64,000 nt of DNA from Planctomycetota bacterium (GTDB taxonomy: Bacteria; Planctomycetota; Planctomycetia; Planctomycetales; Planctomycetaceae): positions 1-64,000 of the forward strand of contig VGZH01000004.1 of NCBI GenBank assembly GCA_016872645.1, given 5' to 3'. Of this stretch, positions 20,535 through 50,837 are shown one piece after another. Within the stretch, counting starts at the first letter, position 1; every line of letters starts with the position of its first letter. The notes below the pieces were generated by a model. It made no database searches. It was not told where the DNA came from and worked only from the letters and a program-made list of their open reading frames with translations. The translations under genes and the position numbers were made by a program.

Positions 20535-20628
20535 TGTCTCTTTTTCCTTTCAGAGAACATCGGATGGTTGCATTCGTTCTCGGAGCAAGTCGGCCACGGT
20601 ACTCTTTGGGCGTGACATCAGTCTGTCC

Positions 20629-20656
20629 CCTCAACCCTCAACCCTCAACCCTCAAC
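20629..20656 (+). repeat. Four heptamer units directly before the MfnF-like start
   Basis: CCTCAAC is repeated four times without a break, ending six bases before the ATG at 20663. This array has no opposing arm nearby, unlike most others in the window. It occupies the place where a ribosome binding site would be expected; no purine-rich Shine-Dalgarno sequence is visible there. Confidence 0.85.
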
Positions 20657-20662
20657 CAAAAC

Positions 20663-44289: not shown

Positions 44290-45768
44290 TCATGCCAGGA
44301 GATCTTCAATCGGCTGGCCATACTGACCGATCGGAACCGGGCGGCCGAGCTTGTCTGGAATTGTCAGATGCGGGTCGAGGCCCATCGCGGAATAAATTGT
44401 CGCCGCGATGTCGGCGTGACTGACGGGGCGGTCTTTCACCCAGGCCGCTTGATCGTCGGACGCTCCGTAGACCGTGCCGCCACGAATGCCGGCTCCAGCC
44501 AGCAGCACCGAGTAGCAGTGAATCCAGTGATCACGGCCGGCGTCTTTGTTGACTCGCGGAGTTCGGCCGAAGTCGCTCATCACAACCACCAGCGTCTCGT
44601 CGAGCAGACCGCGCCGGTCAAGGTCTTCCATCAGCGAGGCGAACGACATGTCCACGACCGGCAGATACTTCTTCAGAATCTGAAAATTCCACATGTGCGT
44701 GTCCCAGCCAAAATCCTGGAACGTGCCGCTGCCGAGCCGGCCGTTGTACCAGTCCCACAAGACGGTCACGAAACGGACGCCGCTCTCAATCAGGTTCGCC
44801 GCGATGAACGTGCTGTTGCCGAACAGCGTGTCGCCGTACCGCTCGCGCACCGTCGCGTCGATGCGAGACGGATCGAACGCTCGCTTGAGCGTGTTCGAGG
44901 TCAGGACGTCGAACGCCTTCTGCTGAAAGCGATCGAAGCCGGACAGAGCCGTCTGCAACGCTGGCCCGCGAAGCTGCTGATCAAGCTGTTCGAGCAATCC
45001 TTTTCGCTGGCTTAGGCGGTCGATCGTGACGCCCTGAGCCAGCACATTGTCCGGCAGACGAGGGACACCCTTCACGAGTGCCGGATCCTCGCGCACGGTG
45101 ATCGGCACACCGGGATCGGTCGTCGGCGTACAGATCGCTTCGAGCGGGTCGTATCGCTTGCCGAGGAATCCGGCATACGGCCCCGCTTTGATCGGCCCAC
45201 CTCCCCAACCGAGCGGCGCGGGCAAATGCGCGTAAGCAGGCAGATCTGCGGGCGGAGCGGGGCGCGTCGCGAAGGCCGGCAGCCCGCGCTGTTGATTCAG
45301 GTATTCGATGACCGACCCCACGCTCGGCGGGTAAGAGTCCTTCAGGATCGTCAGGTCTTCGAGGAACTGGTCCCAGCCGGTGAAGCTGGGCATCGTGTTG
45401 TGGCAGTTCGAGCGATTCACGACCGACCGCACGATCGCCGCCTTGTGCATCCACTTGGCCATGCGCGGCAGGTGCTCGCAGATTTGAATACCGGACGCGC
45501 TCGTTGCGATCGGATTGAACTCGCCGCGCACTTCGACCGGAGCCTGCGGCTTCATGTCGAACATGTCCTGCGTCGGCGCGCCGCCGTGCAAATACATCAC
45601 GACGATGCTTTTCGCTTTGCCAGCTCGCGGCTCTGAACCAGCCGACTCGGCCCGCAGTACGCTTGGCAACGACAGCCCGCCGAGCATTCCGAGGGTGCCG
45701 GCCTGCAAAGTCTCGCGGCGCGTGATCCCGTCGCAGAAATTTCGCAGTCCACCAAGCATCGTGAGCAT
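44290..45768 (-). CDS. DUF1501 family protein
   Basis: The start at 45768 (MLTMLGGLRNFCDGITRRETL) gives 492 residues with a twin-arginine-like leader (ITRRETLQAGTLGMLGGLSL). Domain landmarks are IVVMYLHGGAPTQDMFDMKP, the metal-site region GWDTHMWNFQILKKYLPVVD, MSDFGRTPRVN and GRDHWIHCYSVLLAG, and the end PVPIGQYGQPIEDLLA. It resembles the DUF1501 at 47041-48387 more than the one at 9463-10965. A broken CysQ-type gene lies between the two. The function of DUF1501 proteins is unknown; export through the Tat system is likely. Confidence 0.9.
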   Translation of the reverse strand: MLTMLGGLRNFCDGITRRETLQAGTLGMLGGLSLPSVLRAESAGSEPRAGKAKSIVVMYLHGGAPTQDMFDMKPQAPVEVRGEFNPIATSASGIQICEHLPRMAKWMHKAAIVRSVVNRSNCHNTMPSFTGWDQFLEDLTILKDSYPPSVGSVIEYLNQQRGLPAFATRPAPPADLPAYAHLPAPLGWGGGPIKAGPYAGFLGKRYDPLEAICTPTTDPGVPITVREDPALVKGVPRLPDNVLAQGVTIDRLSQRKGLLEQLDQQLRGPALQTALSGFDRFQQKAFDVLTSNTLKRAFDPSRIDATVRERYGDTLFGNSTFIAANLIESGVRFVTVLWDWYNGRLGSGTFQDFGWDTHMWNFQILKKYLPVVDMSFASLMEDLDRRGLLDETLVVVMSDFGRTPRVNKDAGRDHWIHCYSVLLAGAGIRGGTVYGASDDQAAWVKDRPVSHADIAATIYSAMGLDPHLTIPDKLGRPVPIGQYGQPIEDLLA

Positions 45769-45886
45769 TGCCTCAACCCCTGACCGTCTCGACGGAAGTC
45801 CTCGCAACGTATCGTCAACATCGGCCGCTCACAAGCCGTTCTTGATGTTGCGTGCGGTGCTGACACGCCGCACGCCAAAGACTTGC

Positions 45887-46985
45887 TCAATCGACATGCT
45901 CGCGGATTGCTCGCAGCACGTCATTGTGCAGTCGGCCGTTCGTGACGACGACTCCGCGATTGGCGGAAAGCTCCCGCCCGTGAGTGAACTCCAACGGCTT
46001 TCCGTCGATATCGGTGACTCGGCCGCCCGCCTCTTCGACAACGAGCACTCCACCCGCGTGATCCCAAATCTTTTCGCGATAGTCCTTCTTGGTCGGCAAG
46101 CGGAGATACACGTCTCCTTCACCGCGTGCGACCACCGCGTACTTGGCTTGGCTGTCGAGTCGCACTGGTTGCTTCACGATTCCCAATGACGTGGAAATCA
46201 TGGCCGAGCGGTCATGCGCGCTGTGTCCCGATTCGACCGACTCACACAGCCGCACGTCGGCCCAATTCGACGTTGACGTGACCCGCACCGGCGAGACGAC
46301 AGACTCGCCGAAACAGGATCGCACGCTCGCCCCTTGGCCGCGCACCGTGGAAAAGATCGTTCCCGCAACCGCCGTTCCGCCTGGTTCGAGCGGCAAGTTC
46401 GGACAACCGAGAATTGCAACTAGACTCGCCGAAACAGGATTGCACGCTCGCCCCTTGGCCGCGCACCGTGGAAAAGATCGTTCCCGCAACCGCCGTTCCG
46501 CCTGGTTCGAGCGGCAAGTTCGGACAACCGAGAATTGCAACTTCGATTTGACCATTCACAATCAATGCGAGGGAGACTGCGTACTGCTCGCCGCGCAGAA
46601 AGCCTTTCGTGCCGTCGATCGGATCAAGTGTCCAGAACCTTGGACCAAAGGAGTTTGCTCCACCACGATCAATCCAACGGCAGATTTCTTCCGGTGAACC
46701 CTCGAGTCCAATACGGCTTAATTGCGACAGTACTCCGTCGAGCGACGATTTATTTTCGGGCAGTCGTAGTTCCGCTGAGTCTTCCTCGCCGATGATCGGA
46801 TCATTCGGAAACGCCTCGCCCAGCGCGCGACAGATGACTGCCTGGCTGGCGAAATCGGCGATGGTCACCGGACTCTTGTCCTGTTTCTCCATCGCGGCGG
46901 GAATTGATCGTTGGATGTTGCGGCAGACTTCGGCCGCTCGACGAACGGCGGAGACAGCGATCGAGAGCTCATGCGCGTATTGCAT
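45887..46985 (-). pseudogene. 3'(2'),5'-bisphosphate nucleotidase (CysQ/HAL2 family), frameshifted by a tandem duplication
   Basis: The N-terminal part starts at 46985 (MQYAHELSIAVSAVRRAAEV) and holds the metal motifs GEEDSAELR and WTLDPIDGTKGFL. The C-terminal part, in another frame and ending at 45887, holds the final WDHAGGVLVVEEAGG motif. Between them 121 bases are duplicated in tandem (46301-46421 and 46422-46542). Removing one copy gives an open frame of exactly 326 codons (325 residues), a normal family length. As it stands, translation from 46985 stops at 46242 after about 247 residues and loses the WDxAxG metal site, so the gene is probably inactive. The enzyme removes PAP or related products of sulfate metabolism. 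Confidence 0.85.
46301..46542. repeat. 121-bp tandem duplication inside the CysQ-type gene
   Basis: Copy one is 46301-46421 and copy two is 46422-46542. They differ at one position only (C at 46320, T at 46441). The unit length is not a multiple of three, so it shifts the reading frame. The copies abut with no spacer. Confidence 0.97.
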
Positions 46986-47040: not shown

Positions 47041-48387
47041 TCAAGCAATCAATCCCGGAATCACTTTACCGCCGTTAACCAACGGTACTGGTCGGCCCAA
47101 CGGGTCGTCGTATTCACGGTCGGCGTCGATCCCCAGCAGTGTGTGAATCGTCCGCAATAAATCGTCGACGCTGATGGGATCGCTGGTTGGATACGCGGCT
47201 TGTTTGTCGGTCGAGCCGATGATTTGGCCGGGCTTCACTCCGCCACCGGCGAACAGAATACACTGCGCCTGCGACCAGTGATCGCGGCCAGCTTGGGCGT
47301 TCACGCGCGGAGTGCGGCCCATCTCCCCCATCATCACAACCAGCGTGCTTTCGAGCAGACCGCGTTGTTCCATGTCGGTGATAAGTGCGGCGAACATTTT
47401 GTCGGCGGGAGGAATCAGGTCGTTGACCAAGCTCGGAAAGCAATTGAAGTGGACGTCCCAGCCGGGTCCGTCGATGCCGACGAATCGGCAACCGGCTTCG
47501 ATTAGTCGGCGTCCGAGCAACGCGCTCTGGCCGATTTGAGTCATGCCGTAAGCCTCGCGCACGTTGGCCGGCTCTTCGTGAATGTTGAACGCCTTGCGAG
47601 CTTGCGGCGACGTGATCAGGTCGCGAGCCTTCTGGTAGTAGGTGCTCATCGCGGCCGCCCGACCAGTGCGCGGCTGTCGTTGTTCAAGTCCGGCGAGCAG
47701 TTTCTGTCGCAGGTCGGAACGTTGGCTCGACACGCCATCGATCTTGGCAAGGTCACGAACCTCAAAATCCGGCTGACTGGGATCGGCCTCGATGACGAAC
47801 GGCGCGAACTCGGCCCCGAAGAAGCCGGGGCCGCCAGCCGACATCGGGTGCGGCATGTTGATGTATGGAGGCACCGTCCCGCTGCTGCCAAGCTCACGGG
47901 CCACGATTGAACCGAGCGACGGATACAGCTCGTTGGTCGGAATCGGGTACTCGCCGTCGGCGAACGCCGCGCGTCGACCAGTCATGACGTAGTGGTAGCC
48001 GGTTGCGTGTCCGTTGTCGGCGTGGCTGTGGCTGCGGACGACAGTGAACTTGTTGGCGATCTTCGCGCAGTTCTTGCAGTGCTCGGTGAAGATCACGCCG
48101 GGCAGCGCGGTCGAGATCGGCTCGAACGGCCCCCGAATTTCGGACGGAGCATCCGGTTTTGGGTCCCACATGTCCTGCTGCGGAGGACCACCTTCCAAAA
48201 AGATGAACAGGCACGACTTGGCTTTCGCCTCGCGTGCTCGGTCGGACTTGTTGGCCTCTTCTGCTCTTAACAACTTTGGCAAGGTCAAGCCGCCGAACAG
48301 TCCGGTCGCTCCGAGTCGAAGCGCGTGCCGGCGAGTCAGTCCGTCACAGAAACGATGCCCACGAGAAGGCAATTGGAAGTTGAGCAT
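47041..48387 (-). CDS. DUF1501 family protein paired with DUF1549/DUF1553
   Basis: The start at 48387 (MLNFQLPSRGHRFCDGLTRRH) gives 448 residues with a twin-arginine-like leader (LTRRHALRLGATGLFGGL). Landmarks are CLFIFLEGGPPQQDMWDPKP, FVGIDGPGWDVHFNCFPSLV, VVMMGEMGRTPRVNAQAGRD and GRPVPLVNGGKVIPGLIA. Its start is 26 bases from the stop of the DUF1549 protein gene, so the two form the classical planctomycete DUF1549-DUF1501 pair. Such pairs are thought to be exported and to act on an unknown substrate together. Confidence 0.92.
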   Translation of the reverse strand: MLNFQLPSRGHRFCDGLTRRHALRLGATGLFGGLTLPKLLRAEEANKSDRAREAKAKSCLFIFLEGGPPQQDMWDPKPDAPSEIRGPFEPISTALPGVIFTEHCKNCAKIANKFTVVRSHSHADNGHATGYHYVMTGRRAAFADGEYPIPTNELYPSLGSIVARELGSSGTVPPYINMPHPMSAGGPGFFGAEFAPFVIEADPSQPDFEVRDLAKIDGVSSQRSDLRQKLLAGLEQRQPRTGRAAAMSTYYQKARDLITSPQARKAFNIHEEPANVREAYGMTQIGQSALLGRRLIEAGCRFVGIDGPGWDVHFNCFPSLVNDLIPPADKMFAALITDMEQRGLLESTLVVMMGEMGRTPRVNAQAGRDHWSQAQCILFAGGGVKPGQIIGSTDKQAAYPTSDPISVDDLLRTIHTLLGIDADREYDDPLGRPVPLVNGGKVIPGLIA

Positions 48388-48413
48388 GATCGGCTCCAAG
48401 GGCTTCGTGATTC

Positions 48414-50837
48414 TCAGTGATTGTAGAGAAACTCTTTCGTGTTGAGCACTGCCCACAGCACGTCCTCGACTGCTTGATGCCGATTGGTTCCGGCGGCCTC
48501 GAAGGCGGTGGCCATCAGATGTTTTTCTTCGGAGGTCGGAAAGCGGGTGAGTGTACTCAGATAGATTTCATCGACGATTTCGTCGTTGGACTTGGGGGTC
48601 GCAGCAAGTTTGCGGGCCAGGCCGTGGCGATGCGACAGCTTGGCGTGAACTTCCGGTGAGTTCAGCAGGTGTAACGCCTGCGAGATGCTCGGCTCGTTGC
48701 TCCGTTCGCATTCGCAGACGGTGGCCCGAACGGGGCGGCCGAAGATGCGGAAGAAATACGACGGCATCCGGTTATCCCAGACTTGAATCGAGCGGACTCC
48801 TTCCGGCCAGCCATTGAACTTTTCGGGGACCCCGGTCGTCTGGCTGATCGCGTCGAGCAACACTTCGGCCGGCAGCGTCTTCGGCCGAGCATGCGAGAAG
48901 TGCTGGCGATCGTCGCGGTTCGAGTCGATCGCAGGACCAAGCTGGTAGGCTCGCGAGAGCAGGATCGTTTTCGTGAACGCCTTGAGGTCGTACTTGAGTT
49001 CCTTGAGATGCACTTCGAGTGCGGCGAGCAACGGTTCGTTAGTCGCGGGGTTTGTCGCGCGATTGTCGTCAATCGGCTCGACCAGTCCGCGGCCGAAGTA
49101 GTGCGCCCAAAGTCGATTGGCGATCGCCTTCGTGACGAACGGGTTGTCGGAAGCGGTCATCCAGTTGGCGAGGATGACCCGGCGGTCAACGACGTTCGTG
49201 AAGTCGGCGGTCTTTGCTCCGAGTGCTCTCGCCGGAACAAGTTCGCCAGTGCGTGGATGTTTTTGATCGGTCCCCGCGCGAGCGACGATTGCGTCCGTTC
49301 CATCGGGCAGTTTCTTCACCGTGATACCGGAGAAGAATCCAGCAAGGCCGGCGTAGTCGTCCTGGCTCCAGCGTTCGCTGGGGTGGTGGTGGCATTGAGC
49401 ACACTCGATCCGCACGCCGAGAAACAATTGGCTGACCGCTCGGCTGGTGACTTCCGGTGTGTCGAGCGTCTTGAAAAACGAGGCAGGGCTTTCGCCTTGC
49501 GTCGGTCCTTGAATCGTGATGATCTCGTGGACCATCTCGTTGTACGGCCGGCTAGACGCGAATTGCTTACGGAGCCAGCGAGTCAGCCCAACGGTTCCTT
49601 GCGGCGTGATCTTCAGCTTGTCGGCTTTGAGCAAGTCGGACCATTTCATCGCCCAGTACTCGGCGTACTCCGGCCGTTGCAGCAGCGTGTCGACAAGTTT
49701 TGCTCGTTTGTCGGCGGACGCATCGCCGATGAACGCACGAGCTTCGGCGGCCGTCGGCAGCGTGCCGATCACGTCGAGGAATGCTCGGCGAATGAACGTC
49801 GCGTCATCGATCGGTTCGCTGGGGGGAATGCCCAGTCGCGTCAGTTTGTCCCAGACATGCTTGTCGACGAAGTTGTTCTCTGGCGGCCGAGCGAATGTGC
49901 TGCCCGGCCGAGGCAGCACAACTCGGCAGACGGCGACGTGTCCGAGGTACCGGACGAGAATCGCCGACTCACCGGGGACATCGCTGGCTTGCAGCAGTCC
50001 GCGCGTATTGACGTCGGCGACGTGCGTTGCGTTCGAGAGGTAATCGGCTTCGACCGTCGCACACCGCTTGCCGCCGACATCGTCGATGGCGGTGACTCGC
50101 AATTGCTGCGTCCCGTTCGCGGTGAGGACGACTTGAGCCGGCTCGACTTCGATGCCGACGACTTGCCGTTCGACCGGCTTTCCATCGGTCGGCGGGATGA
50201 CGAACTCGGCTCCTTCGGCGATCCAGCGTCGCAGGCGATGTTCGGCGGGGCTGTTCAGTTCGATCTTTCGTCCGCCGCCATGCGGTATCGTGGCGGTCCC
50301 CTTCAGCAGCAACAAACTGGCTGCCGGATTGGTCAGCGTGAGACGTCGTCCTTTGGCCTCTTTGAAAATCGCATCGTGATCGGCTGCCGCATCGAAGCCG
50401 AACAGGCTCAGCTTGAATCCGTTTTGCCCTTCGGCCTTGCCGTGACATCCGCCGGCATTGCAACGTCCTTTGGTCAGGATCGGAACCACTTCGTAACTGA
50501 ACGATACCGGCACCGGCTTCTGCAAGCCGGTCACTGTGATCGGAACGTTGAGCGTCTTGTTGCCGAACGTCACGGTGAGCTGCGTCGTCCCTTCGTTCGC
50601 CGGCCGAAGCAGGCCATCGGCCGCGATGCTGGCGATGGCCGGAGTTGCGATTGCGAAGCGAGCTTCGCGCGTCACATCCCGTCGCTGATCCCCCTCAACC
50701 TCGGTCACAAGGATCTGCTGTGATCCTTCCGGCCGATCGAGCGAAATCACGGTCGGGCTAACTTGCAACTCGGCTCTGACCGAAGCGACGCTCAGCCAAA
50801 TTCCGGTGACCACAGCGGCAAGTCGCAGTCGAGCCAT
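48414..50837 (-). CDS. Secreted DUF1549/DUF1553 protein with Big_2-like domain
   Basis: The start at 50837 (MARLRLAAVVTGIWLSVASV) gives 807 residues and a signal peptide; an ATG at 50867 is an alternative. A Big_2/Ig-like domain occupies about residues 25-115. CNAGGCHG (near residue 124) is a CxxxCH-type site at the planctomycete cytochrome-c-like region, a second Ig-like stretch follows, then DUF1549 (NNFVDKHVWDKLTRLGIPPS) with CAQCHHHP, a true CxxCH haem-binding motif, and finally DUF1553 (NRLWAHYFGRGLVEPIDD). Haem attachment is plausible but unproven. The DUF1501 partner lies immediately downstream. Confidence 0.92.
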   Translation of the reverse strand: MARLRLAAVVTGIWLSVASVRAELQVSPTVISLDRPEGSQQILVTEVEGDQRRDVTREARFAIATPAIASIAADGLLRPANEGTTQLTVTFGNKTLNVPITVTGLQKPVPVSFSYEVVPILTKGRCNAGGCHGKAEGQNGFKLSLFGFDAAADHDAIFKEAKGRRLTLTNPAASLLLLKGTATIPHGGGRKIELNSPAEHRLRRWIAEGAEFVIPPTDGKPVERQVVGIEVEPAQVVLTANGTQQLRVTAIDDVGGKRCATVEADYLSNATHVADVNTRGLLQASDVPGESAILVRYLGHVAVCRVVLPRPGSTFARPPENNFVDKHVWDKLTRLGIPPSEPIDDATFIRRAFLDVIGTLPTAAEARAFIGDASADKRAKLVDTLLQRPEYAEYWAMKWSDLLKADKLKITPQGTVGLTRWLRKQFASSRPYNEMVHEIITIQGPTQGESPASFFKTLDTPEVTSRAVSQLFLGVRIECAQCHHHPSERWSQDDYAGLAGFFSGITVKKLPDGTDAIVARAGTDQKHPRTGELVPARALGAKTADFTNVVDRRVILANWMTASDNPFVTKAIANRLWAHYFGRGLVEPIDDNRATNPATNEPLLAALEVHLKELKYDLKAFTKTILLSRAYQLGPAIDSNRDDRQHFSHARPKTLPAEVLLDAISQTTGVPEKFNGWPEGVRSIQVWDNRMPSYFFRIFGRPVRATVCECERSNEPSISQALHLLNSPEVHAKLSHRHGLARKLAATPKSNDEIVDEIYLSTLTRFPTSEEKHLMATAFEAAGTNRHQAVEDVLWAVLNTKEFLYNH

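Follow-up and report, generated by a model that had tools for sequence, protein, structure and literature searches.

The window analysed here, a stretch of 64,000 nucleotides of planctomycete DNA, carries a 121-bp tandem duplication that shifts the frame of a minus-strand gene (46985 to 45887) and thus splits it in two. This duplication is very probably an error of short-read metagenome assembly. The cells themselves most likely carry a normal, single-copy gene for a HAL2/SAL1-type 3'(2'),5'-bisphosphate nucleotidase of 325 residues.

The duplicated unit is present at positions 46301-46421 (copy 1) and again at 46422-46542 (copy 2), with neither a gap nor an overlap between the copies. There is a sole mismatch, located at offset 19 of the unit, where copy 1 carries a C (46320) and copy 2 carries a T (46441). 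This exact abutment and the one-base difference were already described in the initial annotation, and both are reproduced here. A comparison of the repeat boundaries reveals no bases common to both copies past their ends, and therefore the junction (46421..46422) has 0 bp of microhomology. A scan of the 64-kb window finds no other near-identical tandem duplication of about this size, and so the pair cannot be due to chance. The window also includes a perfect array of the heptamer CCCTCAA, with 4.3 copies at positions 20628-20657.

The broken gene contains two minus-strand open frames. The 5' frame (46242..46985) encodes a 247 amino acid product that carries the first metal motif, DPIDGT, and it matches the HAL2 model TIGR01330 at model positions 2-216 with 160.6 bits. 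The 3' frame (45887..46555) carries the motif WDHAGG and matches model positions 167-352 with 187.9 bits. Like known HAL2/SAL1-type nucleotidases, the two halves jointly match nearly the whole family model (positions 2-352 of 359) and both metal motifs are present, albeit in separate frames. Unlike them, the gene as assembled lacks a single open frame, and neither half reaches the curated cut-off of 267 bits. The earlier claim that the frameshift costs the gene its C-terminal metal site is thus borne out, wherein WDHAGG falls in the separate 3' frame. The same holds for the claim that deleting one copy yields a 326-codon frame, because 1099 - 121 = 978 nucleotides, which is 326 codons including the stop, or 325 amino acids. 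This restored product has the same length as that of the relative L169.

On the basis of these profile matches, the gene is assigned to the HAL2/SAL1-type family (TIGR01330) and not to the E. coli CysQ type. The initial identification of the frame and of the gene ('CysQ/HAL2-type') holds, with the HAL2 type as the better match. Among solved structures, those nearest to an intact relative are 8f9y (SAL1 phosphatase), 4hxv (putative bisphosphate nucleotidase) and 1k9y (HAL2). No second HAL2-type gene was found in the genome, where other members of the inositol-phosphatase family match the HAL2 model weakly. Thus, a real loss of this gene would leave no close backup. The broken gene is flanked by two minus-strand genes (44290-45807 and 47041-48456) whose proteins are alike and have N-terminal regions resembling FCDGITRRE/FCDGLTRRH; these look like putative members of the DUF1501 family.

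The gene is a single, uninterrupted frame in all 11 same-genus relatives, and six more distant relatives likewise have one open copy. Neither the 121-bp duplication nor variants of it occur at this gene in any of these relatives. Three of the loci that carry the gene (L168, L169 and L173), at 94-96% identity, come from records titled Candidatus Kuenenia stuttgartiensis that look mis-named. In the alignments to each same-genus relative, copy 1 with the left flank and copy 2 with the right flank both fall on one continuous stretch in which the unit is covered once. In every one of these genomes, copy 1 lines up with the 3' part of the gene and copy 2 with the 5' part. Each copy thus continues the flank next to it, which is the pattern expected of two overlapping pieces of sequence.

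These comparisons also bear on the idea that the locus encodes two functional half-genes, or that a programmed frameshift permits reading through the duplication. In its favour, neither frame is interrupted within the duplicated part. However, the 5' product ends with a shifted tail that lacks homology, the first ~45 residues of the 3' frame also lack homology (relatives are matched only from about residue 45 on), and the relatives are single-frame. We consider this reading hardly credible.

The genome is a 213-contig draft assembled from environmental DNA. Exact overlaps between the sampled contig tips are 127 bases long in 13 of 13 cases, which marks the assembly as built from short reads on a de Bruijn graph (k=127). 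A k list of 55/77/99/127 would be SPAdes-like, and MEGAHIT may equally have been run with a list whose last value is 127. Because the 121-bp unit is shorter than k, a real duplication would have been assembled correctly at k=127 and would look identical to what is observed. Despite this, the chance that the duplication is real in any sense appears small.

One form that a real event might take is a tandem duplication of recent date and without adaptive value, which disrupted the gene in all or some of the sampled population; this is unlikely. Residues past the frameshift are 90-93% identical to those of the nearest relatives, and such a conserved 3' part would fit a very recent event. Together with the lack of a backup gene, this conservation also counts in favour of the artefact. 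However, the C/T difference is non-synonymous, with Arg encoded in copy 1 and Gln, like the nearest relatives, in copy 2; a change of this kind is unexpected for a brand-new duplication. The junction without homology also argues against a real event, as do the positions of the mismatches near one end of the unit. Moreover, the further events of the same form described below would need a shared cause.

A survey of 2.26 of the 5.76 Mb (39% of the assembly) reveals seven two-copy, abutting, near-identical duplications, including the one in the window. Their periods are 121, 121, 118, 160, 170, 105 and 55 bp, of which only 105 is divisible by three. Three lie in other genes, namely a weakly phosphatase-like gene (L043, contig C17, 4243-4484), an integrase-core gene (L088, contig C118, 14907-15229) and a gene of the 6-pyruvoyl tetrahydropterin synthase family (L095, contig C125, 1729-2069). 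The remaining three are located at L088 5787-6022 (also contig C118), L130 7470-7679 (contig C41) and L053 9891-9999 (contig C27; 54 identical bases). Four of the seven junctions have 0 bp of homology and the other three have no more than 3 bp, as in random blunt joins. Two near-repeats at contig ends (L071 19045-19393 and L146 1-312) were considered as further examples and rejected, since they belong to repeat families dispersed genus-wide. A repeat array in L045 and a several-copy array in the control locus L154 are ordinary repeats and were likewise left out.

The window gene and the duplicated loci of C17 and C125 were compared with relatives. In every relative matched (11 for the window, six loci for C17 and ten for C125) both copies map to one stretch, and at all three places each copy is colinear with its flank. 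For L130, the matches to relatives end before the duplication is reached. The six further duplications are probably the same artefact as the case in the window.

There is only a small control for how often such structures arise in other genomes. Single-contig relatives totalling 0.4 Mb include one comparable structure, which is part of a several-copy array, and 0.55 Mb of other loci from other genomes include no comparable duplication. This amounts to 0 to 1 comparable case in ~0.94 Mb, where ~3 would be expected at the rate of this assembly. Taken alone, the excess is weak evidence.

The lengths of the identical blocks within the duplications were also compared. In four of the six duplications that bear mismatches, the identical block that touches the junction or the unit end is 101, 99, 99 or 102 bases long, and with random placement of the mismatches this clustering at 99-102 was reached in 0 of 200,000 trials (post hoc). 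Longest blocks are 0-3 bases above 55, 77 or 99 in five of the six (p ~0.0004, also post hoc). The two cases outside the 99-102 cluster are L130 (88) and the 160-bp duplication (56). Both tests were framed after the data had been seen, using a SPAdes-like k list, and they serve as strong hints rather than proof. The block lengths fit pieces that share one k-mer's worth of sequence from an earlier assembly round and then diverge at a strain variant.

These observations suggest how the duplication may have been made. Two pieces of the assembly graph, contributed by strains that live side by side and have one base different, would overlap by ~121 bases. The one-base mismatch between strains would cause this overlap to go unrecognized, and the pieces would then be joined end to end with the overlap untrimmed. 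As a result, the 121 bases would appear twice and the frame would be shifted. We infer both the joining step and the mixture of strains. A single C/T difference is expected under this mechanism, since the joined pieces stem from different strains. The initial annotation had listed a mutation, a switch and an artefact as options, and had taken the single difference to speak against the assembler. The artefact option gains from the recurrence of the structure and from the single copies in relatives, and the lean away from it is reversed, because a mismatch from mixed strains would explain why the overlap was missed and there are at least six similar cases.

Errors of a related kind are known. 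According to Chen et al. 2020 (PMC7111523), joins whose flanks overlap can retain a duplicate of the shared sequence, and identical sequence can be falsely concatenated. Those errors resemble the window case in that sequence is doubled at a join and genes are broken in a short-read metagenome draft. In contrast, the duplicate-flank error was reported with Ns and for other assemblers (PMC7111523), whereas the window copies have no Ns between them, carry one mismatch and are known from the assembly alone. An assembly artefact is nevertheless indicated by the nature of the draft, built from short reads on a k-mer graph, and by a structure that recurs at unrelated loci and is absent from the relatives at the three loci where these could be aligned.

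One further possibility, also raised initially, is that the duplication acts as a reversible on/off switch, in which the 121 bp are gained and lost by recombination or slippage at a useful frequency. Long, near-identical direct repeats that lie out of frame inside a gene would allow reversion. Waite et al. (2001, 2003) reportedly observed, in isolates and cultures, sequence duplications in tts and cap8E/wchA that control phase variation. That tandem duplications inside pneumococcal capsule genes control phase variation is stated in a citing article (cited in PMC4022640), and given this precedent a switch is possible in principle. The window case resembles tts and cap8E/wchA in that a tandem duplication in a reading frame would abolish the product. 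It differs in that it is known from one assembly, the relatives lack the duplication and unrelated loci are alike. In addition, the gene encodes a predicted metabolic phosphatase, only one form was assembled, and similar events strike unrelated genes as well as the end of a gene. With every relative single-copy and other, unrelated loci bearing this signature too, the proposal of a phase-variation-like switch finds no support, and we regard it as highly unlikely. There is an equally slim chance that this is a genuine on/off duplication of a planctomycete phosphatase, one of several generated by a common mutational process.

If the duplication were real after all, a planctomycete might here possess a reversible switch, and the case would be worth attention. 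Under the far more probable explanation of an untrimmed join, it shows that genes in metagenome-assembled genomes can be frameshifted by a local duplication where pieces were joined, and that a one-base difference between the copies is no safeguard. This assembly appears to have several such genes, and therefore claims of gene loss or pseudogenes drawn from it need the support of reads.
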